Virus record (IMG/VR): IMGVR_UViG_3300048930_000405
Coordinates: 1-36,246 of that record
Length of the DNA: 36,246 nucleotides
Strand: one strand, 5' to 3'
Source: a virus
Made by a program: the position numbers and the translations under genes. The notes beneath the pieces were generated by a model. It was not told the origin of the DNA and did no database searches. It worked only from the letters and a program-made list of their open reading frames with translations. This document shows, piece after piece, positions 400 to 36,246 of the stretch. Within the stretch, counting starts at the first letter, position 1. Every line of letters starts with the position of its first letter.

Positions 400-485
400 C
401 GCTAACAAGACGGTCGAGGCAACGGCGGTAAAGTTTTCAGTCGAGGTCGGCGTCTTTCGCGCCGTGCCTCACCTCTGCGTTCGCG
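400..485 (+). other. attC-like recombination site L1
   Basis: Inverse core CGCTAAC (400-406) is followed by AAG; the site ends in GC then core GTTCGCG (479-485). The arms GAGGCAACGGCG and CGCCGTGCCTC can pair with one unpaired A on the left arm. The C-terminal coding part of the 437-658 gene runs through the right half. Confidence 0.8.
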
Positions 486-658
486 CAACGAAAATGATAC
501 GCTATTAGGTGAATGGTTGTGAATACCGCCCCAGACACGATCAGCCGCCACTCCAAAAATGTGAGGCAAACGGCAAATCCGATGTATGCGCCGATCAAAT
601 GCGCGAACAAGGCGGTGGAGGACAACAGCCTCCCGTTGGTGTTTTTTGGCGTGTTCAT
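437..658 (-). CDS. Small cassette-encoded membrane protein
   Basis: The 73-residue product starts MNTPKNTNGRLL and has two hydrophobic segments, about residues 17-36 and 39-55, separated by a short turn with Glu-Trp-Arg. It is probably a two-helix inner-membrane protein; I do not recognise a family. Its ATG lies in the loop of the attC site at 602-700 and overlaps the stop of the upstream gene as ATGA (655-658), so translation is likely coupled. The end of the protein (ANAEVRHGA and onwards) is encoded by the neighbouring attC at 400-485. It fills cassette 480-694. Confidence 0.75.
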   Translation of the reverse strand: MNTPKNTNGRLLSSTALFAHLIGAYIGFAVCLTFLEWRLIVSGAVFTTIHLIAYHFRCANAEVRHGAKDADLD

Positions 659-700
659 AGATTTTTGGCGGGAGGCTGTGCCTCACCTATTTCGTTCGGC
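602..700 (+). other. attC-like recombination site L2
   Basis: Inverse core CGCGAAC (602-608) followed by AAG; core GTTCGGC (694-700). The arms ACAGCCTCCCG and CGGGAGGCTGT pair perfectly over 11 bp. An extra G and an extra A on the left arm match the extrahelical bases of attC sites. The central loop holds an ATGA stop-start junction (655-658). Confidence 0.85.
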
Positions 701-1258: not shown

Positions 1259-1582
1259 TTAGACCGTTTCGATTTGGATGGGATACATCGCCTCCGCCAT
1301 GCGGCGTTTGGCTCTGAACGATTCGGTTTCCACGCCCTTGGTATCCACAAAGTGAGCGGTGCCGTCCTCGCGGAATTCGAGGAAATCCACGACCAGTTTC
1401 ACCCCGCCGGGAAGATGCAGCGGCACCTGGCGGAGGAAAAACACCACTTCGCCGGCGGCTTGCAGCCGCTTGAGGCGGAGATAATACGCGGCCTCTTTTT
1501 TCGAGGAAAACTTGATCCCATCGGTTTCGGTGGGTGTGGCGTTGAATTTGTGGCGGGCACCGCCGATCCGCAACCGTTTCAT
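1259..1582 (-). CDS. DUF1064-like putative nuclease
   Basis: The 107-residue product has the DUF1064 pattern: an N-terminal HKFNATPTETDGIKFSSKKEA segment, a helix YYLRLKRLQAAGEV, then FFLRQVPLHLP, VVDFLEFREDG and HFVDTKG. The Asp in VVDF, the Asp in VDTKG and the Lys after it resemble the D-(E/D)xK core of endonuclease VII/I-like nucleases. Members of this family occur in phage early or replication regions and are thought to act on DNA, possibly as junction resolvases; the activity is inferred. The start overlaps the stop of the upstream gene (ATGA, 1579-1582). Confidence 0.75.
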   Translation of the reverse strand: MKRLRIGGARHKFNATPTETDGIKFSSKKEAAYYLRLKRLQAAGEVVFFLRQVPLHLPGGVKLVVDFLEFREDGTAHFVDTKGVETESFRAKRRMAEAMYPIQIETV

Positions 1583-25792: not shown

Positions 25793-26548
25793 TTACAGCA
25801 GCGGTTTTTCTGTGAAATCCAATGTATTCGTGCCATCGAGTAGGCGCCCGATCAGGGCCGCTGGATTCACGCTGGTGATTTTCAGGTGGAATTCCTCGGG
25901 ATTGGCATTGGAACTCCACAGCGTGGGCAGCCGCCGGTTCTTCCGCGTGTCCAGGATCGTAAAAAGCCGGCTTTCAAACGGCGCACACCACTCGTTGTTT
26001 CCAATGTCATCGATAACGAGATATGGCGATGTCATGCAGTCCGCGAAATATTCCCGCGCCACTTCCGCCACCGCCTTTTCCCGGCTCCGCACGTTGATTG
26101 CTGCTTCCGTGTGCAGCTTCATGGCACTTGTCCACACCAGCCGCAGCCCCTGCATGATGATTTTCTCCGCCAGCAGCGCAAGAATGCGGGTCTTGCACGT
26201 TCCGGCACCACCGATCAATCCCAGCCCATTCCCATGCGGCCCCGGCCGCCACCGCTTCACCACCTCCCACTTCGCCCGGTTGAACCGCGGATCCTCCGGA
26301 TTCGTTCCCAGCGGATCCAGCCATACCGGCAGCAGCTCCGGTTCAATCGTCTCAAGCACCCGGAGCCGGTAAATCTCACACCTCTTTTCCCGCTCCGCTT
26401 CGATCCTCACCCGCTCCCGTTCCGCAGAGCACCCTTCGCAAAATTGCGCGAGTTGCAGCCCGAGGTCCACCGACCCGAACGGAATCGTTTCATACTCAAA
26501 CTCCGCCCCGCAGTCGCGGCAGCATGTTTTTCCCATCGTCGTTTCCAT
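25793..26548 (-). CDS. DnaC-like helicase loader ATPase
   Basis: The 251-residue product has an N-terminal Cys4-type zinc site (CCRDCG at 9-14, CEGC at 37-40) and an AAA+ ATPase domain with Walker A GGAGTCKT (113-120) and Walker B YLVIDDIG (176-183). A later SSNANPEEF and RLLDGTNTLDF follow the IstB/DnaC pattern. It probably loads the host replicative helicase at the phage origin. It forms an operon with the putative replication proteins upstream. Confidence 0.8.
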   Translation of the reverse strand: METTMGKTCCRDCGAEFEYETIPFGSVDLGLQLAQFCEGCSAERERVRIEAEREKRCEIYRLRVLETIEPELLPVWLDPLGTNPEDPRFNRAKWEVVKRWRPGPHGNGLGLIGGAGTCKTRILALLAEKIIMQGLRLVWTSAMKLHTEAAINVRSREKAVAEVAREYFADCMTSPYLVIDDIGNNEWCAPFESRLFTILDTRKNRRLPTLWSSNANPEEFHLKITSVNPAALIGRLLDGTNTLDFTEKPLL

Positions 26549-26569: not shown

Positions 26570-27397
26570 TCAGACAAGCGGGACCGCCTTGCGTCCCCCG
26601 AGGTCCAACTTGCCGGGGACAACCCCATTCCGACCGCCCTGGCGCCGCCATGTGGCCGGATCGTCCCGCCATCGTTCATCCCGGAAAAACCGCGCTGCAC
26701 TCACCACAAACGCATTAAGGTGTCCGCTTGGCAGCGTGGGAATCACCGCGGCAATCGCCCTCGTGCCGGCCAAGATCGTCTCCGGGCTCTCACCCTTCAT
26801 CAAAGATGCCCGGACTGCCTCCAGTGCTTCCTTGTCGCCCTCACGTCGCGGATAGGCATGCACGATCGAAACGAGGTCTTGGTTTTCCCCAAACCCCTTT
26901 CCATTGACTCCTTCTCCTTCTCTTTCTCCTACTCTTACCCCTTCGGGGTTTTGGGTATCCCCCTTGCAAGGGGCTTTTTTCATATTGGGAAAATTTCCCA
27001 AATCCGGAGCTATTTCCAACAGCTCCGGATACGCTTGAAAGAAGGCCCTCCGAAGGGGCTCTTGCAGTTTCGCCGCATGACGTGCCGCAGCAATCACAAC
27101 ATTGTTTCTCAATGACAAACGGCCGCCCTTACCGAATTGATGGCGCAGAAAATTCACCACAAACCACACGCCGCCGGGCAGATGAATGATGGAGCTCGGA
27201 AGCCCCTTGCAAGCCCCTTGCAAGTGGCTTGGGTCAAGCCCCGTCTCAAAAGTGAAACGCTTGTTTGAAACCTTTGTGAATCCGCACAGATCGCGGGATG
27301 GGTTTGAAATCAGCCAAAGGCACGCAAGCTTGATTTCTGCAGGTTGATCTTCGACGCGCGTGTCCGTCCAAAATGATGCTTTGATGATGGAATCCAT
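26570..27397 (-). CDS. Putative phage replication initiation protein
   Basis: The 275-residue product has an N-terminal helical part resembling winged-helix initiators (KLACLWLISNPSRDLCGFTKVS, FVVNFLRHQFGKGG), a low-complexity charged linker (about 150-170, NPEGVRVGEREGEGV) and a C-terminal helical segment ending HLNAFVVSAARFFRDERW. That layout, just upstream of a DnaC-like gene, fits a replisome organiser that binds the origin. The origin itself may lie in the gene; repeats around CAAGGGGC/GCAAGCCCC at 26965-27230 are possible sites. Confidence 0.6.
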   Translation of the reverse strand: MDSIIKASFWTDTRVEDQPAEIKLACLWLISNPSRDLCGFTKVSNKRFTFETGLDPSHLQGACKGLPSSIIHLPGGVWFVVNFLRHQFGKGGRLSLRNNVVIAAARHAAKLQEPLRRAFFQAYPELLEIAPDLGNFPNMKKAPCKGDTQNPEGVRVGEREGEGVNGKGFGENQDLVSIVHAYPRREGDKEALEAVRASLMKGESPETILAGTRAIAAVIPTLPSGHLNAFVVSAARFFRDERWRDDPATWRRQGGRNGVVPGKLDLGGRKAVPLV

Positions 27398-27407
27398 GGT
27401 TTTAGTT

Positions 27408-28055
27408 TCAGGTTTCAGAGAGATCGGCCGGCGGCCAGTTCGACGCGGGATTGACCAACCGCAGCGCCGGCCGCGATGGCCGGCAGTATTTCAATTCCCC
27501 GCTCAGTTGATCCACCACCGGCTGGAACAGCCGCCCAGACACTCCGCAGCCCTCCAGCCGCTTGTCCATGGCCACCGCACCACGTCCCCCGCTGAAACGG
27601 AACCACAGCGGGCTGTCCGCATCCACTGGTCCGGTGAACACCTCGCACCGCGGGAGCCTGGCAATCAGTTGCAGTGCCGACAGTCGCACCCGGCGAGCGT
27701 CCCCCACCACCCATACCGGCGATGGCGCCGGCACCGTTCCCAGCCAGAAACCGATTGCCGATTTGGCGAAAATACGGCCGCTGGCATCCTCCAACCTCCG
27801 CCAATGGTCGCCCTGCGCCAGCACCTCCCACCGGCTCCAGGGCAGCTTGCCCCACCGCGACAAAAACTCCGCACTCGCCGCAGGGAATTCCGAATCGATC
27901 CACCGGCCACGCTGGCAACGGATTGCCAGGTATCCATTGCCGGCCAAAATCTCCCGATCAAACCGGCGGGCCAGGTGAAATGCGTGCCATTCGGCCGGAT
28001 GGCAAAACTCCTGGAGTGCCTCCGCCGGGATTGGGTAGGGAAAATGATTTTTCAT
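27408..28055 (-). CDS. Hypothetical replication-region protein
   Basis: The 215-residue product begins MKNHFPYPIPAEALQEFCHP. The segment SPLWFRFSGGRGAVAMDKR, after a strand-rich region, vaguely recalls the last strands of DNA sliding-clamp domains, and FDREILAGNGYLAIRC could be an earlier strand pair; I regard this as a weak lead only. Its start overlaps the stop of the integron integrase (ATGA, 28052-28055), tying intI to the phage replication operon. Confidence 0.6.
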   Translation of the reverse strand: MKNHFPYPIPAEALQEFCHPAEWHAFHLARRFDREILAGNGYLAIRCQRGRWIDSEFPAASAEFLSRWGKLPWSRWEVLAQGDHWRRLEDASGRIFAKSAIGFWLGTVPAPSPVWVVGDARRVRLSALQLIARLPRCEVFTGPVDADSPLWFRFSGGRGAVAMDKRLEGCGVSGRLFQPVVDQLSGELKYCRPSRPALRLVNPASNWPPADLSET

Positions 28056-29026
28056 GCGCTACGTCGAATGGGGATGATGTTGCGCGCGGCCTCCGCATCG
28101 AGCGGACTGCCAACCGTTTTCTGCCCGGCGGTGTGCAGGTATATTTCCGTCGTCTCTAGTTTCGAATGGCCCATTTGTTCCTGGATTACCCGCACGTCCA
28201 CTCCCTCGCGGAGCAATCCCGTCGCGTAGGAGTGGCGGAGAGCATGCGGATTCACCCGCTGCGTGATGTTCAGCAGCCCGGCGGCCTCTTTCAGGGCCGT
28301 CACCAGCCGCTTGTCCGTCGCATGCCAGCGTTTGGTGCCGTTGACCTTCTGGGATGGAAATAGCCAATACCAGGGCAAGGTGGAAAACGTGCGCAATCCA
28401 AGCTTTCGCATCAATGAACCCTCCGGATCCTCGGTGATCGGGCAGATGATCCCGCGTTGGCGATCCCGGTCCCATTGCATCCGGCACGCCATCAGTTGGT
28501 GTTCCAGATCCGCAACGAGGAATTCCGGAATCCGCAATGCCCGGGATTTTCCGCCCTTCCCGTCGTAGATTGTGATCACCCTATCCTCAAGCCGAATATC
28601 CTTCAACCGCAGAGTCAGCATGTCCGATTCAATCCGTAGTCCGCAACCAGCCAACAAACCCGCCTGAAGGCGCGGAATCCGCGGCATCAGTTCCATCATC
28701 GAAATAATCTGGCGCATCGTCAGCACCGCCCGCATGGGCCGGGTTCGATTTCTCTGCGGAACCTCATATTGCCCAAACTCCCTGCCGAGAACTTTTTCGT
28801 ATAGAAATTTCAACGGATTCAGCGCATGGCAAACCGTGTTCGGGGCCAACCGTTTCACACTCGCCAGATAATGAAAATATTCCTGCGGGCCATCAATTTG
28901 GCCTTGTTTCAACAACCTCGAAAACTCTGCGATTGTCGCCGCATAGCTGATTCTCGTGTTCCTGCGCAGCCCAGCATTCAGTGCTGCGGTTTCAAATGCT
29001 GCCAACACCTCGGCTACTGTTTTCAT
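28052..29026 (-). CDS. intI: Integron integrase (IntI-type tyrosine recombinase)
   Basis: Start placed at ATG 29026 (MKTVAEVLAAFETAALNAG); the frame is open to 29101. The 324-residue product has a complete catalytic set: Arg131 (GCGLRIES), Lys160 (DGKGGKSR), His261 and Arg264 (NPHALRHSYATG), His287 (MGHSKL) and Tyr296 (EIYLHT). Between the Lys strand and box II it carries an extra segment, about residues 190-235, including LPWYWLFPSQK. This corresponds to the IntI-specific insertion (WPWFWVF in IntI1), and it ends GSPLDA like IntI1. It lies next to an attC array and should recombine cassettes at attI. Its stop overlaps a phage gene start. Confidence 0.9.
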   Translation of the reverse strand: MKTVAEVLAAFETAALNAGLRRNTRISYAATIAEFSRLLKQGQIDGPQEYFHYLASVKRLAPNTVCHALNPLKFLYEKVLGREFGQYEVPQRNRTRPMRAVLTMRQIISMMELMPRIPRLQAGLLAGCGLRIESDMLTLRLKDIRLEDRVITIYDGKGGKSRALRIPEFLVADLEHQLMACRMQWDRDRQRGIICPITEDPEGSLMRKLGLRTFSTLPWYWLFPSQKVNGTKRWHATDKRLVTALKEAAGLLNITQRVNPHALRHSYATGLLREGVDVRVIQEQMGHSKLETTEIYLHTAGQKTVGSPLDAEAARNIIPIRRSA

Positions 29027-29078
29027 AATGGGGGGGTGTTTATTGCCACTTATTGGATTTATAATTCTCTGTTCTCCG
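29027..29078 (+). other. Candidate attI site
   Basis: The first core, GTTCTCCG at 29071-29078, is complementary to the inverse core of the first cassette (GGAGAAC ending at 29315, eight bases). The DNA between it and the intI start is the expected place for attI. It contains a C/G-run and an A/T-rich stretch (TTATAAAT on the minus strand) that could be an intI promoter -10. The exact integrase-binding sites cannot be read off. Confidence 0.5.
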
Positions 29079-29277
29079 GAAGGAATGCCACGATCACGCA
29101 TCCGGTTGCTTGAGCTCCCCCATCGTAATGCAACTCAACACCTTCATCAGACCACAGCGGGTCATCGTCGGCGCGGTCCAATTGGAGAGTGACCGGGATG
29201 CTTGATGGATCATCATTTCTCTCGATGGCGTTTTCGATAGCGGCATCGACGTGCTTTTTCAGGTCTGCAAGTGTCAT
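29059..29277 (-). CDS. First-cassette hypothetical protein
   Basis: The 72-residue acidic product begins MTLADLKKHVDAAIENAIER and contains TLQLDRADDDPLW and GGAQATGCVIVAFLPENREL. No family recognised, though the LADLKKHVD start is common among small phage proteins. The last codons (ENREL and the stop) lie beyond the core at 29071, within attI, so the stop codon is supplied by attI DNA. A conserved leader precedes the start (29278-29308). Confidence 0.75.
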   Translation of the reverse strand: MTLADLKKHVDAAIENAIERNDDPSSIPVTLQLDRADDDPLWSDEGVELHYDGGAQATGCVIVAFLPENREL

Positions 29278-29308: not shown

Positions 29309-29395
29309 GGAGAACAAGTCGTGGGATGCGACGGCGATCAGCCGCCAGTTTGATTCGATGCGCCATCCCGCCGCGCATCCACATCGGCGTTCTCC
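29309..29395 (+). other. attC-like site 1
   Basis: Inverse core GGAGAAC (29309-29315) plus AAG; core GTTCTCC (29389-29395) preceded by GGC. Arms GGGATGCG and CGCATCCA-side sequences can pair. It closes the cassette that begins at the attI core. Confidence 0.75.
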
Positions 29396-29698
29396 TCAAT
29401 GATGCGGCCCACCCCTCCATGCAGAGAAGTCTCCAAGGATCGGAAGGTTGAGGGCGCGTCGAAGGCCGCAGTTTCCTTTGATCCCTCGATACCATCCAAG
29501 GCGCGTGGACTTGCATCGAGGGTGCCACGCGAGGGAATAGGAGTAGAGCCCCCATCGCCACATGAGCAGGTTCCACGATCCGGTTTTCTCGCCCTCGAAT
29601 GTCCTTGAGCGACGAAGCACTCGGATGGATCGAACGAAGGAGAACAAGCGGGTGATGACCGACCCGCAACGGTTTGGTTGTTCAACGGTTGTTTGCAT
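29396..29698 (-). CDS. Cassette-encoded hypothetical protein
   Basis: Three frames are open here. I prefer the one starting ATG 29698 (MQTTVEQPNRCGSVITRLFS), because its second half has the texture of a real protein: WNLLMWRWGLYSYSLAWHPR, RLGWYRGIKGNCGLRRALNLP and ILGDFSAWRGG. The product has 100 residues, is basic and Trp-rich, and may be membrane-associated. No family named with confidence. The stop lies directly before the core at 29389, so unlike its neighbours it does not read through the site. Confidence 0.6.
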   Translation of the reverse strand: MQTTVEQPNRCGSVITRLFSFVRSIRVLRRSRTFEGEKTGSWNLLMWRWGLYSYSLAWHPRCKSTRLGWYRGIKGNCGLRRALNLPILGDFSAWRGGPHH

Positions 29699-29748
29699 AT
29701 TCTTACTTGGTTGGTGATTCGGCGGGCGGCATACCCTTGGCGTTCTCT
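29639..29748 (+). other. attC-like site 2
   Basis: Inverse core GGAGAAC (29639-29645) plus AAG; core GTTCTCT (29742-29748). GGGTGATG on the left pairs with CATACCC on the right, leaving one extra G on the left arm, as expected for attC. Confidence 0.75.
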
Positions 29749-30422
29749 TCCTGACCGTCCGGCTTTCCATCAGCTCTTTCGTCAACGGTGTCCAATGGCG
29801 CGTCCTTGCGTTGGATGCCGCGCACCTCGATGTAAAACTGCACCCAGATTTTCGTGTCTTTCAGGCGTCCATTGTGGTCGCGAACTTCTTCATGAGTGTG
29901 GCGCGGCGATTCCACCCAACGCACCAGCTTTTCGGATTTTTCGATGAGACACGCCTTGTCCCGCTCGACCTCGGCAAGCCGCTGGCGTAATTGGATGCAC
30001 TCTTCCTCGAACGACTTGCAAAATTTCTCCCTGTCGGATTGGCGCCTTAGCCACTCAGAGTATCGACGGACGAAGCCGATTCCATCCTCGCGGACGTAGA
30101 ATCGACCTGTGGCTTGAGCATCGGCGATTTCCATTTCGGAGCATTCACCGGAGGTTACGATTGCGCCACCATCGGCGGCGAGTTGGTTTATCAGTTGATC
30201 GGTGGTCATGGTGTTGTTTGGTTCGTGATTCTTTGGCAGAGGTCGGTCTTGTTGGCAGATCGCTCCGGTAAGGAACGCAGTGGCGAGCATCCGCTCCATG
30301 GTTTCCTTGTTGACATGCCCGCCCTCCGGCGGGATGCCGAGCATGAGTCTGTCCAACATGCCAAGGCATTCGTTGGCGTGCCACTGTTCCATGAGTTCTA
30401 TTGGGTCTTGGTTCGTATTCAT
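29703..30422 (-). CDS. Cassette-encoded coiled-coil protein
   Basis: Start placed at ATG 30422 (MNTNQDPIELMEQWHANECL), after a conserved leader. The 239-residue product has an N-terminal helical part and, from about residue 72 (MTTDQLINQLAADGG), a second part with a long coiled coil (SFEEECIQLRQRLAEVERDK). The second part has its own ATG (30209) after an A/C-rich stretch, so two genes may have fused. The tail ENAKGMPPAESPTK is read through attC site 2. Function unknown. Confidence 0.65.
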   Translation of the reverse strand: MNTNQDPIELMEQWHANECLGMLDRLMLGIPPEGGHVNKETMERMLATAFLTGAICQQDRPLPKNHEPNNTMTTDQLINQLAADGGAIVTSGECSEMEIADAQATGRFYVREDGIGFVRRYSEWLRRQSDREKFCKSFEEECIQLRQRLAEVERDKACLIEKSEKLVRWVESPRHTHEEVRDHNGRLKDTKIWVQFYIEVRGIQRKDAPLDTVDERADGKPDGQEENAKGMPPAESPTK

Positions 30423-30470
30423 ATCGTTGGTTTCTGGTGATTCGGAAGTGATGACGGGAAGATGATGGGA

Positions 30471-30567
30471 AGAGAACAAGGGGCTGATGATCGACCCGGC
30501 TATGGCGTTCCAATTTCATTTCAAAGGCTCTTCATTTGCGCCGGGCGTCATAGCCCTAGCGTTCGGG
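30471..30567 (+). other. attC-like site 3
   Basis: Inverse core AGAGAAC (30471-30477; extended match GGAAGAGAAC with the core at 29742) plus AAG; core GTTCGGG (30561-30567) preceded by AGC. Arms GGGCTGATGATCGACCCGG and CCGGGCGTCATAGCCC pair with extra bases only on the left arm. Confidence 0.85.
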
Positions 30568-31388
30568 CAATCCATGAAGAGCGCCATTTCCTGCGCGCAC
30601 CGTCTGGCGATGGTTTCACAGTGCGACTCGGCAAGCTCGATCCCGATGGCTTTCCGTCCGCGTTGCTTGGCGGCCACCAGCGTCGAGCCGGAGCCGCTGA
30701 ACGGGTCCAGCACGGTTCCGCCTGGCGGCACAGCCACGTCGATGAGCTTGGCCAGCACTTCCAGCGGCTTCTGGCACGCATGGTCACGGGTTCCGCTCGA
30801 CACCCGCCGGGAGCGGATGACGTTTTGGCCGTCCTTCGTGGCGTATTCGGTCACGCCGTTGGTGTATTCGAGGATGATTTCGTGGGCGGGCTTGAAGCCC
30901 ATTCCGAGGCCCGCACTCATCTTGTCCCACACGATCATGTTGCGATACCGGAGGCCGGAGGATTCCAGCGCGGGCGCGAGGTGCGGGACCATGCGCCAGT
31001 CCGTGAACACGAAGGCGGAGCGGTTGGCCTTCATCACGCGGCGGCTTTCCACCAGCACGGCACGGACCAGCCACACCAGCCCGCCCGTCGTCATGTTGTC
31101 AGCCGCGAACCATTCGACTTCACCACTGGCGAGGCGTTCGGAGCGGTGCCCCTGCCCGCCGCTGTTCTTCTGCGCTTCGAGTGCGCCGCCGGAGCAGTAG
31201 GGTGGATCGGTGATGACGGCGTCCACGCTCACACCTTCCATCGCTCGCATGATCTCCACGCAGTCGCCATGATATAGGGTGATGTGGCTGTCCTCGTAAT
31301 ACGGACGAAGCCCGAACAAGGCGCTGGACCTAATGCCCACCGCGTCGGCGGTTTCAGTGGTTGCGGAGTCTGTTGGCGCGGTGGTCAT
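30516..31388 (-). CDS. DNA methyltransferase (N6-adenine/N4-cytosine type)
   Basis: The 290-residue product is a beta-class amino-methyltransferase. Motif IV DPPYCSGG lies at 61-68, and the SAM-binding motif DPFSGSGSTLVAAK lies near the C-terminus, followed by IGIELAESHCETI. It modifies adenine (DPPY) or less likely cytosine; the target site is not visible. No restriction enzyme gene is nearby, so it is an orphan that likely protects phage DNA or affects regulation. The start overlaps the upstream stop inside attC site 4, and the tail PNARAMTPGANEEPLK is read through site 3. Confidence 0.88.
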   Translation of the reverse strand: MTTAPTDSATTETADAVGIRSSALFGLRPYYEDSHITLYHGDCVEIMRAMEGVSVDAVITDPPYCSGGALEAQKNSGGQGHRSERLASGEVEWFAADNMTTGGLVWLVRAVLVESRRVMKANRSAFVFTDWRMVPHLAPALESSGLRYRNMIVWDKMSAGLGMGFKPAHEIILEYTNGVTEYATKDGQNVIRSRRVSSGTRDHACQKPLEVLAKLIDVAVPPGGTVLDPFSGSGSTLVAAKQRGRKAIGIELAESHCETIARRCAQEMALFMDCPNARAMTPGANEEPLK

Positions 31389-31409
31389 AGGTCAGCTTGT
31401 GCGTTGTGC
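31311..31409 (+). other. attC-like site 4
   Basis: Inverse core CCCGAAC (31311-31317), complementary to the cassette's left core at 30561 over eight bases (GCCCGAAC); core GTTGTGC (31403-31409). The loop contains an ATGA stop-start junction at 31385-31388. Confidence 0.8.
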
Positions 31410-31900
31410 TGAAGAATTGTCCCGTCCGGGCGTATCACGCGGGCTTCGTATTTTCTCCATGTGCGCTCGTAGCCGATTCGCTCTTCGCGCATGGTTTCGT
31501 CATTCACTGGACGCTCATCACGCCACGGCGATCCGGCCACGAACTCGCCGACGCTCCGCCACTTGTCGGGTAGGTAGCGGTGGCGACGCTCGACGCGATA
31601 AATGGCAGAGCGTTCCACTCCCTGCGCTCGCCAGCGGTCTAGCCTGTCAGATTCATGCTGTGTCATCTTTTGCGGCTCATCGTCCTGATACGGGAGGAGC
31701 GGCAAGTCGAGGTGGATATGGTCAGGGCATTCCGTTCCGTGATTCAGCATCGCTTCTTCACATTCTGGACACCACGTCTCCACTACGTCAGCGTTGAGAT
31801 CCTTTAATTGGTCGGTGGTGAGGCTGCGATTGTAGCCGCAATGCTCGCACCAAATGTATCCATCTGGCACGGGTTCTATTTCTGGCGTTCGATTTTCCAT
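31385..31900 (-). CDS. Cassette-encoded zinc-ribbon protein
   Basis: Start placed at ATG 31900 (MENRTPEIEPVPDGYIWCEH). The 171-residue product has two CxxC pairs, WCEHCGY (about 18-24) and WCPECEEA (about 43-50), a treble-clef or zinc-ribbon pattern. A basic, Arg-rich C-terminal part follows (DKWRSVGEFVAGSPWRDERP, TWRKYEARVIRPDG). It probably binds nucleic acid or protein. The tail LQHNAQADL crosses the core at 31403 and the stop overlaps the methyltransferase start. Confidence 0.65.
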   Translation of the reverse strand: MENRTPEIEPVPDGYIWCEHCGYNRSLTTDQLKDLNADVVETWCPECEEAMLNHGTECPDHIHLDLPLLPYQDDEPQKMTQHESDRLDRWRAQGVERSAIYRVERRHRYLPDKWRSVGEFVAGSPWRDERPVNDETMREERIGYERTWRKYEARVIRPDGTILQHNAQADL

Positions 31901-32085
31901 ATTGGCGTTTTGTCTGGTTTGATTGTTTTTCCGCAGTGGTCGCATTCTTCGTCGTCGGTATGGCCAGCCAGTGCGGGACTCTCCTTTTCGAGCCTATCCC
32001 AACACGGCCAGCAATACAGCCTCCCCACGTTGTCCGTGGGGAGGTAGAGGTGGCGGGTTACAGGGTTTGGAGATATTCCCAGCAT
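31876..32085 (-). CDS. Cassette-encoded small zinc-finger-like protein
   Basis: Start placed at ATG 32085 (MLGISPNPVTRHLYLPTDNV). The 69-residue product has LYCWPCWDRLEKE and ECDHCGKTI, two CxxC pairs spaced like a zinc ribbon. It overlaps both neighbours in the same cassette by about 25 bases in other frames, suggesting coupled translation. Function unknown. Confidence 0.55.
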   Translation of the reverse strand: MLGISPNPVTRHLYLPTDNVGRLYCWPCWDRLEKESPALAGHTDDEECDHCGKTIKPDKTPIWKIERQK

Positions 32086-32207
32086 ATCAGGCGGGTGGTG
32101 GTGTTGTCGGTGGTGTTCATCATCTGGCGGATTTCTTCGCTGGTCATTCTCACGAATTGGTTGCGGAGTTCGATTTCGCGGGCTGTCAGTTGGTTGGTGT
32201 TGGACAT
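32058..32207 (-). CDS. Small cassette-encoded helical protein
   Basis: A 49-residue product starts at ATG 32207 (MSNTNQLTAREIELRNQFVR) and ends ICWEYLQTL. It is polar and helical with no recognised motif. It is the first gene of the three leftward genes in this cassette and faces the divergent HTH gene at 32292, so both may share the operators between them. Confidence 0.55.
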   Translation of the reverse strand: MSNTNQLTAREIELRNQFVRMTSEEIRQMMNTTDNTTTRLICWEYLQTL

Positions 32208-32291
32208 GCGTTGAGACTGTCCGCATCGCGGACTTATTGCAAGAACTATTTTCCGCATTGCGGATTTATTTTTGCCGTGTATTCTTCGGCC
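32208..32291. promoter_or_regulatory. Divergent control region with paired operators
   Basis: Two 13-bp perfect inverted repeats, TCCGCATCGCGGA (32220-32232) and TCCGCATTGCGGA (32252-32264), lie 32 bases apart, about three helical turns. They sit between the leftward gene starting at 32207 and the rightward HTH gene starting at 32292. The layout is typical of an autoregulated Cro/CI-like switch. Confidence 0.65.
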
Positions 32292-32519
32292 ATGAGTTTC
32301 GACACCGACCTTGCCGACTACACTGCCGCTCAGATCATCGCCGCCCTGGGGTGCCCCCGATCCACCGCTTACGAGTGGAAGGATGGTCGCCGCCAGCCGC
32401 CCGCATGGTTGCATCCCATCTTGCTTGCCGTCATCGCCCGAGAAGCAAAGAGGCACAACAAGACGCTCATGCCAACCGATACCAGCCGGGCAGCCGGTAG
32501 CAGGAAGCGGAGGTCGTAG
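32292..32519 (+). CDS. HTH transcriptional regulator (only rightward cassette gene)
   Basis: Start placed at ATG 32292. The 75-residue product begins MSFDTDLADYTAAQIIAALG and has a Cro/YdaS-like helix-turn-helix: AAQIIAALGCPRSTAYEWKD (about 12-31), then a helix ending in a basic tail (SRAAGSRKRRS). It presumably binds the paired palindromes just upstream and controls its divergent neighbours. It is the only gene in the array with the usual orientation relative to its attC, whose left arm its 3' end overlaps. Confidence 0.7.
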   Translation: MSFDTDLADYTAAQIIAALGCPRSTAYEWKDGRRQPPAWLHPILLAVIAREAKRHNKTLMPTDTSRAAGSRKRRS

Positions 32520-32555
32520 GGCGGCTGGCATCGGCGGCATAGCTAGACGTTGAGC
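32453..32555 (+). other. attC-like site 5
   Basis: Inverse core GCACAAC (32453-32459) plus AAG, complementary to the core at 31403 over seven bases; core GTTGAGC (32549-32555). Arms ATGCCAACCGATACCAGCC and GGCTGGCATCGGCGGCAT pair well with an extra base on the left. Confidence 0.85.
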
Positions 32556-32926
32556 GGAGAAGGCCACACCCTGCGGCCGTTCTCATCCGTTTGAATTGCT
32601 GCGAGCAGATCGGACGCTCCGACGACGAGCAGGGTTTCGCCGTCAGAGAACACCATTTTCATCGGCTTCCGTCCGAAGTCGCAATCCCAGGCAAACCATT
32701 CCAGCCAGCCACGGGCATCCTCGGCGTCGTCGCTGATGATGGCGGCGAGCGTCCGGGTGTATTCCCCGAACATGCCCCAAATTGCAGACCGGATTTCGTT
32801 TTCCGGGTTGGCCATGAATGCCGCCTCGATGCGTCCGAATGTTTCGTCCACCCTGCGCGCGGCCTCGATCCAACGCTCAACAAGTGGCTGGTGATCGACC
32901 CGGTCTAGCTTCTCAATTTCACTCAT
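32543..32926 (-). CDS. Cassette-encoded hypothetical protein
   Basis: The 127-residue acidic product begins MSEIEKLDRVDHQPLVERWI and contains WGMFGEYTRTLAAIISDDAED and GWLEWFAWDCDFG. No family recognised. The N-terminal dozen residues are encoded by the attC loop and left arm (site 6), and the start overlaps the upstream stop there (ATGA). The last residues PLNV cross the core at 32549. Confidence 0.65.
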   Translation of the reverse strand: MSEIEKLDRVDHQPLVERWIEAARRVDETFGRIEAAFMANPENEIRSAIWGMFGEYTRTLAAIISDDAEDARGWLEWFAWDCDFGRKPMKMVFSDGETLLVVGASDLLAAIQTDENGRRVWPSPLNV

Positions 32927-32970
32927 GGTCTTCTCCTTTCTCTCCGGGCGTCACAGCCCCGGCGTTCTGA
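32875..32970 (+). other. attC-like site 6
   Basis: Inverse core GCTCAAC (32875-32881) plus AAG, complementary to the core at 32549 over eight bases; core GTTCTGA (32964-32970) preceded by GGC. Arms GGCTGGTGATCGACCCGG and CCGGGCGTCACAGCC pair with extra left-arm bases. The loop carries ATGA (32923-32926). Confidence 0.85.
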
Positions 32971-33468
32971 ATCCAAGCTGGCAGCGGCTTCCGTGAGCAT
33001 GCAGCGCAGCTTCGCCCACGCTTCATCCTGTGTTCGCCCCTCCGCTTCCCACTTGCCTTGTCCGCCATAGAGCGAGGCGATGGTCTCGAACGTCGTCAGC
33101 GGCTTCCAGATCATCACCACGTCGCGGTTGCATCTGCCCTCGGTGGAGTGTCCATATTGCCATTCCAGCCCGCCACGGTCGATTCTGGCGATCAGTGCGA
33201 GGATGCGCTCCCGGACCGGTCCGTAGTCTGGCACGAAGTCATCGGCCACAATCCGGTTGTGATTCAGAGTGTCACGGTCGGTCCAGAGGATTCCCTTATG
33301 TCCGTCGTCATAGGTGATGCGTATTTTCCATCCGGATTTCACATTGGTTCGACGTTCCGCCTCTGTGATGGTTCCCATGATTCCGGTGTGGATGTTTTGC
33401 ACTCGCTTTCCGAGGTTGCGGTAGGGGCGGGATGATTTCTTGATGATCGGGATAATGTTGGATTCCAT
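32923..33468 (-). CDS. Cassette-encoded hypothetical protein
   Basis: The 181-residue product begins MESNIIPIIKKSSRPYRNLG after a conserved leader. Residues about 18-65 (VQNIHTGIMGTITEAERR to YDDGHKGILWTDRDT) look like a small SH3/Tudor-like barrel; the rest is mixed. No family named. It is the exception to the tail rule: it crosses the core at 32964 in another frame (SERRG). It still stops at the ATGA junction of attC site 6. Confidence 0.65.
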   Translation of the reverse strand: MESNIIPIIKKSSRPYRNLGKRVQNIHTGIMGTITEAERRTNVKSGWKIRITYDDGHKGILWTDRDTLNHNRIVADDFVPDYGPVRERILALIARIDRGGLEWQYGHSTEGRCNRDVVMIWKPLTTFETIASLYGGQGKWEAEGRTQDEAWAKLRCMLTEAAASLDSERRGCDARRERRRP

Positions 33469-33501
33469 TGCTCAAGTTGGTTGGTGATTTCGGGCTGATT
33501 C

Positions 33502-33596
33502 AGAGAACAAGTCGGCGATGGCAAGCGGGTGAAGCGTTTCAATTTCCGGGCATGGGCGGGCCATCGGCTCCCGCTGCCATGCCTTGTGCGTTATGC
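33502..33596 (+). other. attC-like site 7
   Basis: Inverse core AGAGAAC (33502-33508) plus AAG; core GTTATGC (33590-33596). Arms GATGGCAAGCGGG and CCCGCTGCCAT pair. The inverse core matches the cassette's own left core (GTTCTGAATC at 32964) only if two inserted bases are allowed, the one imperfect pair in the array. Confidence 0.75.
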
Positions 33597-33910
33597 CCAG
33601 AATGATCCACTTCGACGCGCCCCGTGATGAATCCACGTCGCGGCATTCTGGCGGAGTGCATCACAGAGAGAATGTCAATACAGGTGTCCAAGTAGTCGCC
33701 GCGTTTCAGCGGCCCCATCGTGAAGTCTGCAAAGTCATCCCATCCGGCTTCCCCAAGCAAGCCAGAGGCGAGCACCCGGTAGTTTCCAACGTCACCATTA
33801 CCGCGCATGTCGCCAGCGGTTCCGTCGTTTTCGATCTCGACTTGAGCGAGCTTGCGTTTGCGGGATTCGTCCCCCCGCGGGATCAGTTCAATGGTAATTC
33901 GAAGAGGCAT
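33539..33910 (-). CDS. Cassette-encoded hypothetical protein
   Basis: The 123-residue product begins MPLRITIELIPRGDESRKRK and continues AQVEIENDGTAGDMRGNGD, a strand-rich pattern; no family recognised. The ATG lies inside the inverse core of attC site 8 (GGCATAAC read on the other strand). The tail HNAQGMAAGADGPPMPGN is encoded by attC site 7. Confidence 0.65.
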   Translation of the reverse strand: MPLRITIELIPRGDESRKRKLAQVEIENDGTAGDMRGNGDVGNYRVLASGLLGEAGWDDFADFTMGPLKRGDYLDTCIDILSVMHSARMPRRGFITGRVEVDHSGHNAQGMAAGADGPPMPGN

Positions 33911-34008
33911 AACAAGGGAGTCATGGCAACCGGGATCAGCGGTCTAGTTTATTTTTGGATTCGGAGTCTGGCACCGCTGATCCCGGTGCCATACCCCCAG
34001 CGTTCTGC
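33907..34008 (+). other. attC-like site 8
   Basis: Inverse core GCATAAC (33907-33913) plus AAG, complementary to the core at 33590 over eight bases; core GTTCTGC (34002-34008). Arms CATGGCAACCGGGATCAGCGG and CCGCTGATCCCGGTGCCAT pair over nearly their whole length with an extra C and an extra A on the left arm, a textbook attC layout. Confidence 0.9.
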
Positions 34009-34289
34009 CGAAGAGTAATTTCCGCCGCGACCGCGAGAATGAGGAGTGGGCATTCACCGTCTCGCTTCATCTCCTTCACGACCGGCATCACGGCCTTGAT
34101 CGGGTTATCGTGGCCGTCACGTTCCATCAGCCCCTCGATGAGCGGGCGCTGTTCCGCGACGATTTCCTCCCACGTTTCGCCGTGGATCGACGCCATGGCA
34201 GCGCGGAGTTTCTCCAACTTTTGCGCGGTGTGGAGATTTTCGAGGTTGTTGACCACTGATGTCGGCATGTCTGTGATTTTCAATTTCAT
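33936..34289 (-). CDS. Cassette-encoded helical hypothetical protein
   Basis: Start placed at ATG 34289 (MKLKITDMPTSVVNNLENLH). The 117-residue product is helical and acidic (KLEKLRAAMASIHGETWEEI, IEGLMERDGHDNPIKAVMPV). No family recognised. The tail QNAGGMAPGSAVPDSESK and onwards is read through attC site 8 into the left neighbour. An upstream in-frame ATG at 34328 is possible but less likely. Confidence 0.65.
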   Translation of the reverse strand: MKLKITDMPTSVVNNLENLHTAQKLEKLRAAMASIHGETWEEIVAEQRPLIEGLMERDGHDNPIKAVMPVVKEMKRDGECPLLILAVAAEITLRQNAGGMAPGSAVPDSESKNKLDR

Positions 34290-34313
34290 GGTGTTGTCGG
34301 GGATTTTGAAGAG

Positions 34314-34414
34314 GCAGAACAAGGGCACTGCTGGCGACCCTCACCCGCGCTCAAGTTTATTTTGCTGGCGGCGCGCCATCCGCGGGTGTGGTCGCCAGAG
34401 TTCTTTCGTTCGCC
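34314..34414 (+). other. attC-like site 9
   Basis: Inverse core GCAGAAC (34314-34320) plus AAG, complementary to the core at 34002 over eight bases; core GTTCGCC (34408-34414). Arms CTGGCGACC/GGTCGCCAG and CACCCGCG/CGCGGGTG pair perfectly, with an extra G on the left. Confidence 0.9.
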
Positions 34415-34974
34415 AGACTACGCAGCGCGGTTGCCAGCAGTCGGGCGGATTGCCTCGCGTCGGCAAGCGGTTCGTGCGCGGGCTTCTCGGATTCCTCCCG
34501 CTCGTAGGTCGCCATCGGGTCCATGCCAGCGGCCAGCATCACGGAAGCGATTTCGTGGAACGGATACGGACCCGACCATTTGCGGTCTGCGATTTCCTGA
34601 CGAATGCAGGCGGCGACGAATCCCGCTTCCACGGGCCAGATGCACTCGCCTGCCATCGCGATTCCGGGATACCGCTTCTTCGCTTTCTCCCACTCTGCCC
34701 AGAACGCCTCGCGGAGTCCGGCAGGGTGGCGGTGCGTGATCTCCATGACAGGGACGTTTGCTTTGACCCATTCGCGGTCATCTTCGTCTCCTTTGGCTTC
34801 TTCAATCGGGCAGCAGAATCGGAACTCCGATTGCGCAGCCCCGTTGATGTAGATGCCCCCTGCGACTGCGAAGGCTTCTCCGTGAAGTCCGATTGATTCC
34901 ACATCGAAGACGAAGAATGGCGAACAAGGCGATGGACTCAACAGAGTCCCGGCGGCTGTTTGTGGTGTATTCAT
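34357..34974 (-). CDS. DnaQ-like 3'-5' exonuclease
   Basis: The 205-residue product has a DEDDh-type layout: Asp24 and Glu26 in FVFDVESIGLHGE, and His167/Asp172 in AHEPLADARQSARLL, the HxxxxD motif of the DnaQ/RNase T fold. The middle acidic residue is less certain. It could degrade or trim DNA or RNA; for a phage, a nuclease for host nucleic acid or repair is possible. The start is in the attC site 10 loop, overlapping the upstream stop. The tail ANERTLATTPADGAPPAK is encoded by site 9. Confidence 0.75.
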   Translation of the reverse strand: MNTPQTAAGTLLSPSPCSPFFVFDVESIGLHGEAFAVAGGIYINGAAQSEFRFCCPIEEAKGDEDDREWVKANVPVMEITHRHPAGLREAFWAEWEKAKKRYPGIAMAGECIWPVEAGFVAACIRQEIADRKWSGPYPFHEIASVMLAAGMDPMATYEREESEKPAHEPLADARQSARLLATALRSLANERTLATTPADGAPPAK

Positions 34975-35016
34975 AGATTTTTGGCGGGACTCTGTGAGTC
35001 ATCTTTGGCGTTCTCC
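34919..35016 (+). other. attC-like site 10
   Basis: Inverse core GGCGAAC (34919-34925) plus AAG, complementary to the core at 34408 over eight bases; core GTTCTCC (35010-35016) preceded by GGC. Arms GACTCAACAGAGTCCCG and CGGGACTCTGTGAGTC pair with an extra G and A on the left. The loop holds ATGA (34971-34974) and closely resembles the loop of site L2. Confidence 0.9.
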
Positions 35017-35207
35017 CGAATGAAATCCCCGCGTAGATTCCGCATGGATATTCCGGCAGCTTTGAGTTGTGCGGGCGTGCGTTCGCTGGTTTCGATCACC
35101 CGTTCCTCGCAGTTCACGAAGAGTCGGAAGGTCGTCATTTGCTCGGGGGATTCCTCGCGGAGAGCGTCCACAAGTGCGTCGATTGCGTCGGTGATTTTCG
35201 GTGTCAT
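34971..35207 (-). CDS. Cassette-encoded hypothetical protein
   Basis: Start placed at ATG 35207 (MTPKITDAIDALVDALREES). The 78-residue product is mixed alpha/beta, with TTFRLFVNCEERVIETSERT. No family recognised. It ends ENAKDDSQSPAKNL, read through attC site 10; the final PAKNL is shared with the gene at 655-957 because the two sites share sequence there. The stop overlaps the exonuclease start. Confidence 0.65.
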   Translation of the reverse strand: MTPKITDAIDALVDALREESPEQMTTFRLFVNCEERVIETSERTPAQLKAAGISMRNLRGDFIRENAKDDSQSPAKNL

Positions 35208-35225
35208 ATCGGTATTTCGGAAGAG

Positions 35226-35314
35226 GGAGAACAAGGCGTGCGAGCTAACCGCCGACAACGCCCTTCTTGGATTCGGAGCCACCATTCGGCGGTAGCTCCA
35301 CTTTATCGTTCGAT
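35226..35314 (+). other. attC-like site 11
   Basis: Inverse core GGAGAAC (35226-35232; extended GGGAGAAC) plus AAG, complementary to the core at 35010 over eight bases; core GTTCGAT (35308-35314). Arms GAGCTAACCGCC and GGCGGTAGCTC pair with an extra A on the left. Confidence 0.88.
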
Positions 35315-35781
35315 GGACTAACTTTCTCCGCGACGCAGCATCCCACGCCGCCGTCCCACCGGAAGAACACCACGCCGTTCTGGTCTATCTTTTCCCACCG
35401 CTGGCGATGCGTCCGCCCATAAACCCAGATTCGCACCTTCGCCACGTTTTTGAACTCCAGGCCGGGGAGGATGTTCAGCGACTCGCGGACAGTCTTTGGG
35501 ATGCGGGCGACGGCGGCTTTCTTGGCTGGACCAACACCTTCCTCATTGTTGGCCACGGCTCCCATTGCCCACCACACTTGCGCGGCGATTCCTGAGCGTT
35601 GTTCCTTTAGGTCCGGGTGCTTTCTTTTCGGCACGCAGATCACCACTTGGCCGTTGATCGCGACGACATCGCCGCCGCCGTAGGAATAGAGGTTGAACGG
35701 CTCGCTGTATTCTGGGCGATCCGGTGTGCAGAATTTTCTCAGGAGATCCAAGTCTATCGGTTTTTCAAGCGTTGAGTTCAT
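35245..35781 (-). CDS. Cassette-encoded hypothetical protein
   Basis: Start placed at ATG 35781 (MNSTLEKPIDLDLLRKFCTP); ATG 35817 is an alternative inside the inverse core. The 178-residue product has strands and helices (YSYGGGDVVAINGQVVICVP, IAAQVWWAMGAVANNEEGVG, VRIWVYGRTHRQRWEKIDQ). No recognised family. The last segment SNDKVELPPNGG onwards crosses the core at 35308 and is encoded by attC site 11. Confidence 0.65.
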   Translation of the reverse strand: MNSTLEKPIDLDLLRKFCTPDRPEYSEPFNLYSYGGGDVVAINGQVVICVPKRKHPDLKEQRSGIAAQVWWAMGAVANNEEGVGPAKKAAVARIPKTVRESLNILPGLEFKNVAKVRIWVYGRTHRQRWEKIDQNGVVFFRWDGGVGCCVAEKVSPSNDKVELPPNGGSESKKGVVGG

Positions 35782-35815
35782 CGGTTTTGTATCGGAGTTG
35801 GTTGGTAGTTCGGCC

Positions 35816-35904
35816 ATCGAACAAGGTCGGTGCTGGCAACCGCGGGAACGTCTCAAGTTGAAGCGGAGTCCTGGGGCGCGGTTGCCAGACCGCCAGCGTT
35901 CGCC
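35816..35904 (+). other. attC-like site 12
   Basis: Inverse core ATCGAAC (35816-35822; extended CCATCGAAC) plus AAG, complementary to the core at 35308 over nine bases; core GTTCGCC (35898-35904) preceded by AGC. Arms CTGGCAACCGCG and CGCGGTTGCCAG pair perfectly, with an extra G on the left beyond the stem. Confidence 0.9.
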
Positions 35905-36246
35905 AGACGGAATCTCATGAGAAACTTCGTCACGGTCTGTCCGGGTTTGAGCAGCGGGCGGAACCATGCGTCAAGTTCCTCGCGGGACTCGAAGCCTTCC
36001 GTTTCATGGAGCATTCGCGATCCGCTCAGATTGCAGGCATAGAACATCTCTCCATCGCTCCGGCGGTGGATTTCGATTGGCAGGACTCCTTTGACGGTCA
36101 CGGCCGCAACGTCGATTTGCTTTGATCGGTAGGCGGCCCCACTCCAGTTGTAGAGCATGATTGGCACGTCAGTCGGCCAGAACGAATTGCGGATTGTAGT
36201 GGTCTTCCGGCTATCTAGGACAGCCTGCGTGAATCGGGGATTTAAT
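35853..36246 (-). CDS. Cassette-encoded hypothetical protein (5' end cut)
   Basis: The frame ends at 35853 and stays open to the window edge, so the start lies outside. Visible sequence reads NPRFTQAVLDSRKTTTIRNS, then WPTDVPIMLYNWSGAAYRSK and CNLSGSRMLHETEGFESREE. The texture is that of a real protein upstream of the first internal starts (GTG 36167, ATG 36158). No family recognised. The tail ANAGGLATAPQDSAST is read through attC site 12. Confidence 0.7.
   Translation of the reverse strand, partial: LNPRFTQAVLDSRKTTTIRNSFWPTDVPIMLYNWSGAAYRSKQIDVAAVTVKGVLPIEIHRRSDGEMFYACNLSGSRMLHETEGFESREELDAWFRPLLKPGQTVTKFLMRFRLANAGGLATAPQDSAST

Follow-up and report, generated by a model that had tools for sequence, protein, structure and literature searches.

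The locus raises the question of whether an integron integrase gene that overlaps a phage gene by a few nucleotides is an integral part of the phage operon and, if so, what the overlap means. The window analyzed here spans the whole of a 36,246-base virus record in IMG/VR and carries on its minus strand intI, which encodes an integron-type tyrosine recombinase (28052..29026), and next to it a 215-aa gene with no function assigned in profile searches (27408..28055, minus strand). The last codon of intI, GCA, is followed by the stop TGA (28054-28052), which overlaps the ATG (28055-28053) of the 27408-28055 reading frame to give the string GCATGA. This ATGA at 28052-28055 on the minus strand is exactly as the original prediction described it, and the overlap of stop and start codons is what a translationally coupled pair would have. 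The further statement that ordinary phage genes here are joined in the same way also held, with a 4-nt NTGA overlap in 7 of 18 same-strand neighboring gene pairs in a simple gene set for the window (at 28052, 32923, 31385, 29274, 24803, 21081 and 9036). Because the overlap is this common, it is weak evidence when taken alone, and we regard the finding itself as accurate for the sequence and of modest significance.

The surroundings of the junction were searched for signals. The sequence upstream of ATG 28055 (ACATCATCCCCATTCGACGTAGCGCATG) contains no Shine-Dalgarno-like purine-rich stretch, which would fit re-initiation at this codon. In a weak scan of the region from 25.5 to 31.5 kb, terminator-like sites were no more numerous than expected by chance, and a separate intI transcript was set aside as a candidate on that result. 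The earlier failure to see a LexA-type site agrees with our search for three canonical boxes (TGTTC-N4-GAACA, CTGT-N8-ACAG and GAAC-N4-GTTC), none of which was found, with the proviso that the LexA motif of the host itself may differ; one match to TGTTC-N4-GAACA with a single mismatch, at 27627, is the number expected by chance. The promoter, terminator and LexA scans, all of them weak, gave nothing that would point to intI as a separate unit, and Rfam and tRNA scans of the window returned no matches.

The open frame of intI reaches 29101, and the start is probably ATG 29026, giving a protein of 324 residues, because three aligned homologues begin there. The GC content of the gene (0.56; GC3 0.66) is similar to that of its neighbors. 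Its top NCBIfam match is TIGR02249, at 180 bits and under the cut-off of 265, and the domains PF00589 and PF13495 are both matched. The closest solved structure by sequence is the integron integrase in PDB entry 2A3V, which belongs to a chromosomal integron and not to a phage operon; it is distant (133 bits), with an alignment that covers the catalytic domain and the IntI-specific insert of the window protein. An AlphaFold model of IntI based on four sequences had a mean pLDDT of 40 and was set aside.

Relatives of IntI with 69-80% identity are encoded by the viral contigs L002, L003, L004, L005 and L006 and by L041, a contig of one Akkermansiaceae metagenome-assembled genome, whereas the top matches in INPHARED were below 37% identity. 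Among 260 genomes of that Verrucomicrobiota family and 384 of its class, the phage-type IntI scored 641 bits as opposed to 192 bits or less for the other matches; at the chosen threshold, IntI-like matches were present in 64 of the 260. Five phage-type IntIs formed a monophyletic group with support of 100/100, separated from the sampled chromosomal IntIs by a stem of 2.4 changes per site; long branches leave the deeper and exact placement of the phage clade unsure. A captured host chromosomal integron would have its IntI nested within host IntIs; the window protein falls in a separate, phage-associated clade far from them, which argues against a host integron having been captured recently. A second, distantly related lineage of phage IntI was noted in L030 (173-1147), L117 and L118, with a score of 253.5 bits to TIGR02249 in the record of L030. 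Contigs of this lineage include a terminase close to that of the window (75% identical in the L030/L117 phage).

On the minus strand, the gene order runs from the cassette array through intI and the 27408 gene to a replication-initiation-like gene (26570..27397; PHROG 270 / 1701), a DnaC-like helicase loader (25793..26548; PHROG 50 / 3277), an HNH nuclease, the terminase and the portal. This co-directional arrangement without gaps supports the placement of intI within what would be a phage operon. The viral contigs contained no relatives of the 27408-28055 gene or of either replication gene, and terminase relatives were used in their place. The string GCATGA ends intI in the window, in L002 and in L003, L004 and L006; the stop and start are separated by 2-4 nt in L005 (TGAccATG) and L041 (TGAccccATG), and an intI remnant in L007 is followed by TAGccATG. 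What comes after the junction changes from phage to phage: in L002, a DUF1064 gene with RecT and YqaJ after it; in L003, L004 and L006, two or three small genes without an assigned function, with a separate phage integrase as well in L003; in the Mu-like transposase elements L005 and L041, genes without an assigned function that, judged by eye only, are possibly related between the two; and in L007, a Mu F-like head gene. Since the following gene differs among phages, intI with its array behaves as a module placed before varied genes. In the second lineage, GCATGA opens a 265-aa frame in L030 and L117, and L118 has no overlap. Within the Akkermansiaceae contig, the region L041:3079-11800 combines a Mu-like transposase, a methyltransferase cassette and intI beside a tRNA-Ser, and is possibly a provirus remnant.

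The gene is also dispensable. In L007 (9643-10150) a 5' truncation has left only the final 46 codons, joined in frame at CAGAAC to the last cassette gene; the fusion has the look of a recombination event at a site in intI or close to it. In L113 (1631-2800) intI is absent and attI is retained with two cassettes, one of them a possible cytosine methyltransferase, a state we read as a decayed phage integron. The original claim that intI lies in the phage early operon and is not a recent insertion thus survives in part: co-directional genes without gaps, a GC content like that of the neighbors and a phage-associated clade speak for it; the frequency of ATGA, the lack of conservation of the following gene and the loss of intI in L007 and L113 count against the claim in the form in which it was made. 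In relatives, tight spacing at the intI stop is kept, but the partner gene varies and often is not a replication gene.

Beside intI lies attI (29030..29076, minus strand), with its crossover AAC at 29073-29071. Its signature upstream of intI is common to five loci and was also found in IMG/VR, and identity between L003 and L004 breaks exactly at the matching place. An array of 12 attC sites, all on the minus strand, extends from 29.3 to 35.9 kb. The first (29310..29394) is an imperfect inverted repeat with bulges and a fold z of -3.0; a search for imperfect inverted repeats also gave attC 2 (29640..29747), attC 3 (30472..30566), attC 5 (32454..32554), attC 7 (33503..33595), attC 9 (34315..34413) and attC 11 (35227..35313). 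Stop-start junctions of the ATGA type occur in attC 4 (31312..31408; ATGA at 31385-31388), and ATGA is also found in the degenerate attC 6 (32877..32969; 32923-32926) and in attC 10 (34920..35015; 34971-34974); attC 8 (33908..34007) and attC 12 (35817..35903) have fold z values of -6.3 and -4.6. On the plus strand the sites take the form AACAAG ... GCGTTC, with bulged bases on the AACAAG arm; the left arms of ordinary attCs also carry bulged bases. Folding was better than that of shuffled sequences in all five attCs tested, and of the attC-like matches in the window, 14 lay on one strand, 13 of these within the array, and a single one on the opposite strand. Two further attCs were found by the attC search at the left end of the record (401..484 and 603..699, minus strand). 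As attC sites and array genes are present at both record ends (1-700 and 29310-36246), the ends of the contig probably fall within a single, longer array, through circular permutation or an assembly break at the cassettes. A DUF1064-like gene, recognized by eye, would stand before the array in the window (1259-1582) if the record ends join; in L002 (1715-2029) it stands directly after intI.

Cassettes of an integron move as units between crossovers, and this is what a comparison of L003 and L004, relatives of the window phage, revealed. Over 7.65 kb that begins at attI, takes in intI and continues beyond it, the two contigs are 99.4% identical; on the other side of attI they share cassettes, and the order differs. 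Most block edges in the two arrays fall at GAAC/GC (the slash marks the edge), and the last falls at AGAACAG in attI. These breakpoints put the crossover on the side expected for the standard geometry of intI, attI and then attCs. L003, L004 and L006 are metagenome assemblies. The sequence shared at a junction amounts to only about 4-8 nt, and L006, which has the L003 array with 99.8% identity over 17.6 kb, was assembled from another metagenome than L003; a misjoin is therefore an unlikely source of the differing order. The first cassette of L004 (9116-9970) resembles SspD (PADLOC, 1.3e-18), and the same position in its sister L003 is occupied by a DNA methyltransferase.

In the window and its relatives, the cassette genes are directed toward intI. 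N6/N4 methyltransferase domains bear out this coding strand: those of the window and L041, and two each in L003 and L005, are all read in that direction. The methyltransferase gene of the window (30516..31388, minus strand; PF01555, 4.8e-33) has a C-terminus, NARAMTPGANEEPLK, that comes from attC 3; another cassette gene (29703..30479, minus strand; start codon uncertain) ends in NAKGMPPAESPTK, encoded by attC 2; and attC-encoded tails include NAKSAGTAAHEGKTI. The first cassette gene (29059..29277, minus strand), which has a 58% homologue in the phage cassette array of L007, reads through attI in frame and ends in PENREL, with its in-frame stop downstream of the attI crossover in the minus-strand codons AAC AGA GAA TTA TAA. 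Verrucomicrobiota chromosomal integrons resemble the window in the orientation of attC relative to intI and in the style of the attC sequence, but in 19 of 21 intervals their longest cassette ORFs point away from intI, and their IntIs differ, as the scores above indicate. The phage cassette genes are neither directed away from intI nor complete within the cassette, as the genes of a conventional array would be.

Because the genes run toward intI, the crossover lies inside their 3' ends. Of 33 gene bodies that were clear and non-redundant, 31 have it in the phase AAC/N, compared with 16 of 30 for the same phase of GAACG in ordinary genes of the window phage (p = 4e-7 for the difference); crossovers in another phase amounted to 5 of 44. 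With a single crossover phase, shuffling swaps C-terminal tails together with their stop codons. One gene body in the L003/L004 comparison accordingly bears two tails, GSSSLPNAKSAGTAAHEGKTI and GSSSLPNA; a second exchange sets DLFRGQNA against DLFRGQNAKSAGTAAHEGKTI, and a third sets a tail beginning RDTFPQNAGGMARELA against RDTFPQNDKDLARRALDSE, all closed by a stop codon. ATGA is found inside attCs of the window, L003, L007 and L113, and in several attCs the stop codon of a gene overlaps the ATG of its successor. Since attCs carry such stop-start junctions, the ATGA where intI ends closes a series of them. Some consecutive cassette genes are 26-60 nt apart with no overlap and some inter-attC intervals have no in-frame ORF, and re-initiation therefore cannot be the sole route of translation.

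We weighed these data against other explanations. Many ordinary cassette genes end inside an attC. So does each array gene when read in its own direction, and the cassettes could on that ground be conventional, with attC after its own gene, the crossover on the CTTGTT side and every gene keeping its tail without swapping. We find this scarcely credible: the natural L003/L004 breakpoints lie on the opposite side, at GAAC/GC, and contradict the conventional orientation, the same gene body is found with differing tails in these contigs, the bulged bases are on the AACAAG arm, and a fixed crossover phase would be needless if gene and attC moved together. We give as little credence to the idea that the recombinase is the lysogeny integrase of the phage and not an integron integrase. 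The TIGR02249 score under the cut-off and the tRNA-Ser adjoining L041 in its host contig would fit that idea; it was rejected on the shuffling of cassettes at the neighboring attC and attI sites, the separate integrase of L003 and Mu-like transposases of L005 and L041, and the match to 2A3V, an integron integrase, that includes the IntI-specific insert.

A far closer contender is that the ATGA reflects the normal tight packing of phage genes, intI having been placed by gene-boundary recombination between phages. We hold this to be quite possible, as nearly two-fifths of same-strand pairs overlap in this manner, the next gene is mostly unrelated between phages, and intI is lost in L113 and truncated in L007. 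Against it, the next gene changes, yet every locus of the clade has its stop and start within the range from a 4-nt overlap to a 4-nt gap, and L007 keeps the 46-codon 3' end of intI, fused in frame to the last cassette gene. More doubtful is a timing of integrase expression with phage DNA replication, when single-stranded attC hairpins would become available; the original prediction suggested such timing for cassette recombination. The idea draws on the position of intI upstream of same-strand replication or recombination genes in the window and L002, a context that is not general, being absent from L003, L004, L006 and L007; moreover, exposure on the lagging strand depends on the position of the origin.

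The explanation that we favor, and consider highly probable, is an integron of a phage lineage that forms part of a phage operon, with reversed, in-frame cassettes and a coupled chain that runs into intI and the next gene. IntI would recombine attC hairpins with the attI beside its own gene in the usual geometry, and relative to the host chromosomal integrons compared, the cassette genes occupy the opposite strand, along the direction of the phage operon. The crossover would take place at the GAAC box, within the 3' end of each cassette gene. A cassette would then consist of an open-ended gene body preceded by an attC with the C-terminal tail and stop codon of the upstream gene, and in many cases the attC would also supply a start codon that overlaps that stop or lies near it. 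With the crossover codon in one phase, cassette exchange would leave the upstream frame intact. The junction, the attI and attC sites, the shuffled cassettes with edges at the crossover and the in-frame tails with their exchange are observed. We infer the choice of the cut strand, an operon transcript and re-initiation: a phage promoter beyond the array would drive a transcript through all cassettes into intI and the next phage gene, and the GCATGA of intI, as the last stop-start junction, would probably permit re-initiation on whichever phage gene comes next. Somewhat more cautiously, we think it probable that this is a phage-specific class of integron with antisense, open-ended cassettes, in which attC would unite a hairpin, a coding tail and a stop-start junction and recombination would preserve translation of the operon as it reassorts C-terminal tails.

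In a standard integron the cassettes rely on an external promoter, and attC is a separate element behind each gene. The closest parallel in translation is found in class 1 integrons, where the proximity of stop and start codons at attI or attC aids the translation of cassettes without their own ribosome-binding site, through ORF-11 and ORF-18 of attI1 and short ORFs in attCs, ORF-18 extending from attI into the cassette (PMC8876359). There, however, it is a leader peptide whose translation is coupled to that of a cassette in sense orientation, whereas in the window full genes cross the recombination point, and a stop-start chain into intI and a phage gene is a feature of the window unlike class 1 integrons. 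Integrons are known from phages, with phage-borne intI, attI and attC, methyltransferase cassettes and attCs that recombine in assays (Qi et al. 2023, PMC9892861); the window shares with them the phage-borne intI, attI and attC and the DNA methyltransferase cassettes. In the part of that article considered here, the cases are host-type integrons captured by prophages or attC clusters without an integrase, and the cassettes are typically oriented in two examples; in-frame crossing and tail exchange, as in window-type arrays, are not described in that part. A search of the freely available journal literature found no report of reversed cassettes that cross the recombination point in frame and, on phage integrons, nothing matching beyond Qi et al. 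2023, a scope in which absence is not proof.

The chemistry of integrons appears here in a form adapted, it seems, to a phage operon, in which the recombination site is translated, the frame is fixed, and the stop and start codons are carried along. The pair L003 and L004 indicates that cassettes are reordered in phage lineages too and not only in bacterial chromosomes. The arrangement makes it possible to study how a mobile cassette system that lacks a dedicated promoter for its cassettes is kept expressed, and whether reshuffling of genes such as those of DNA methyltransferases is a use that phages make of it.
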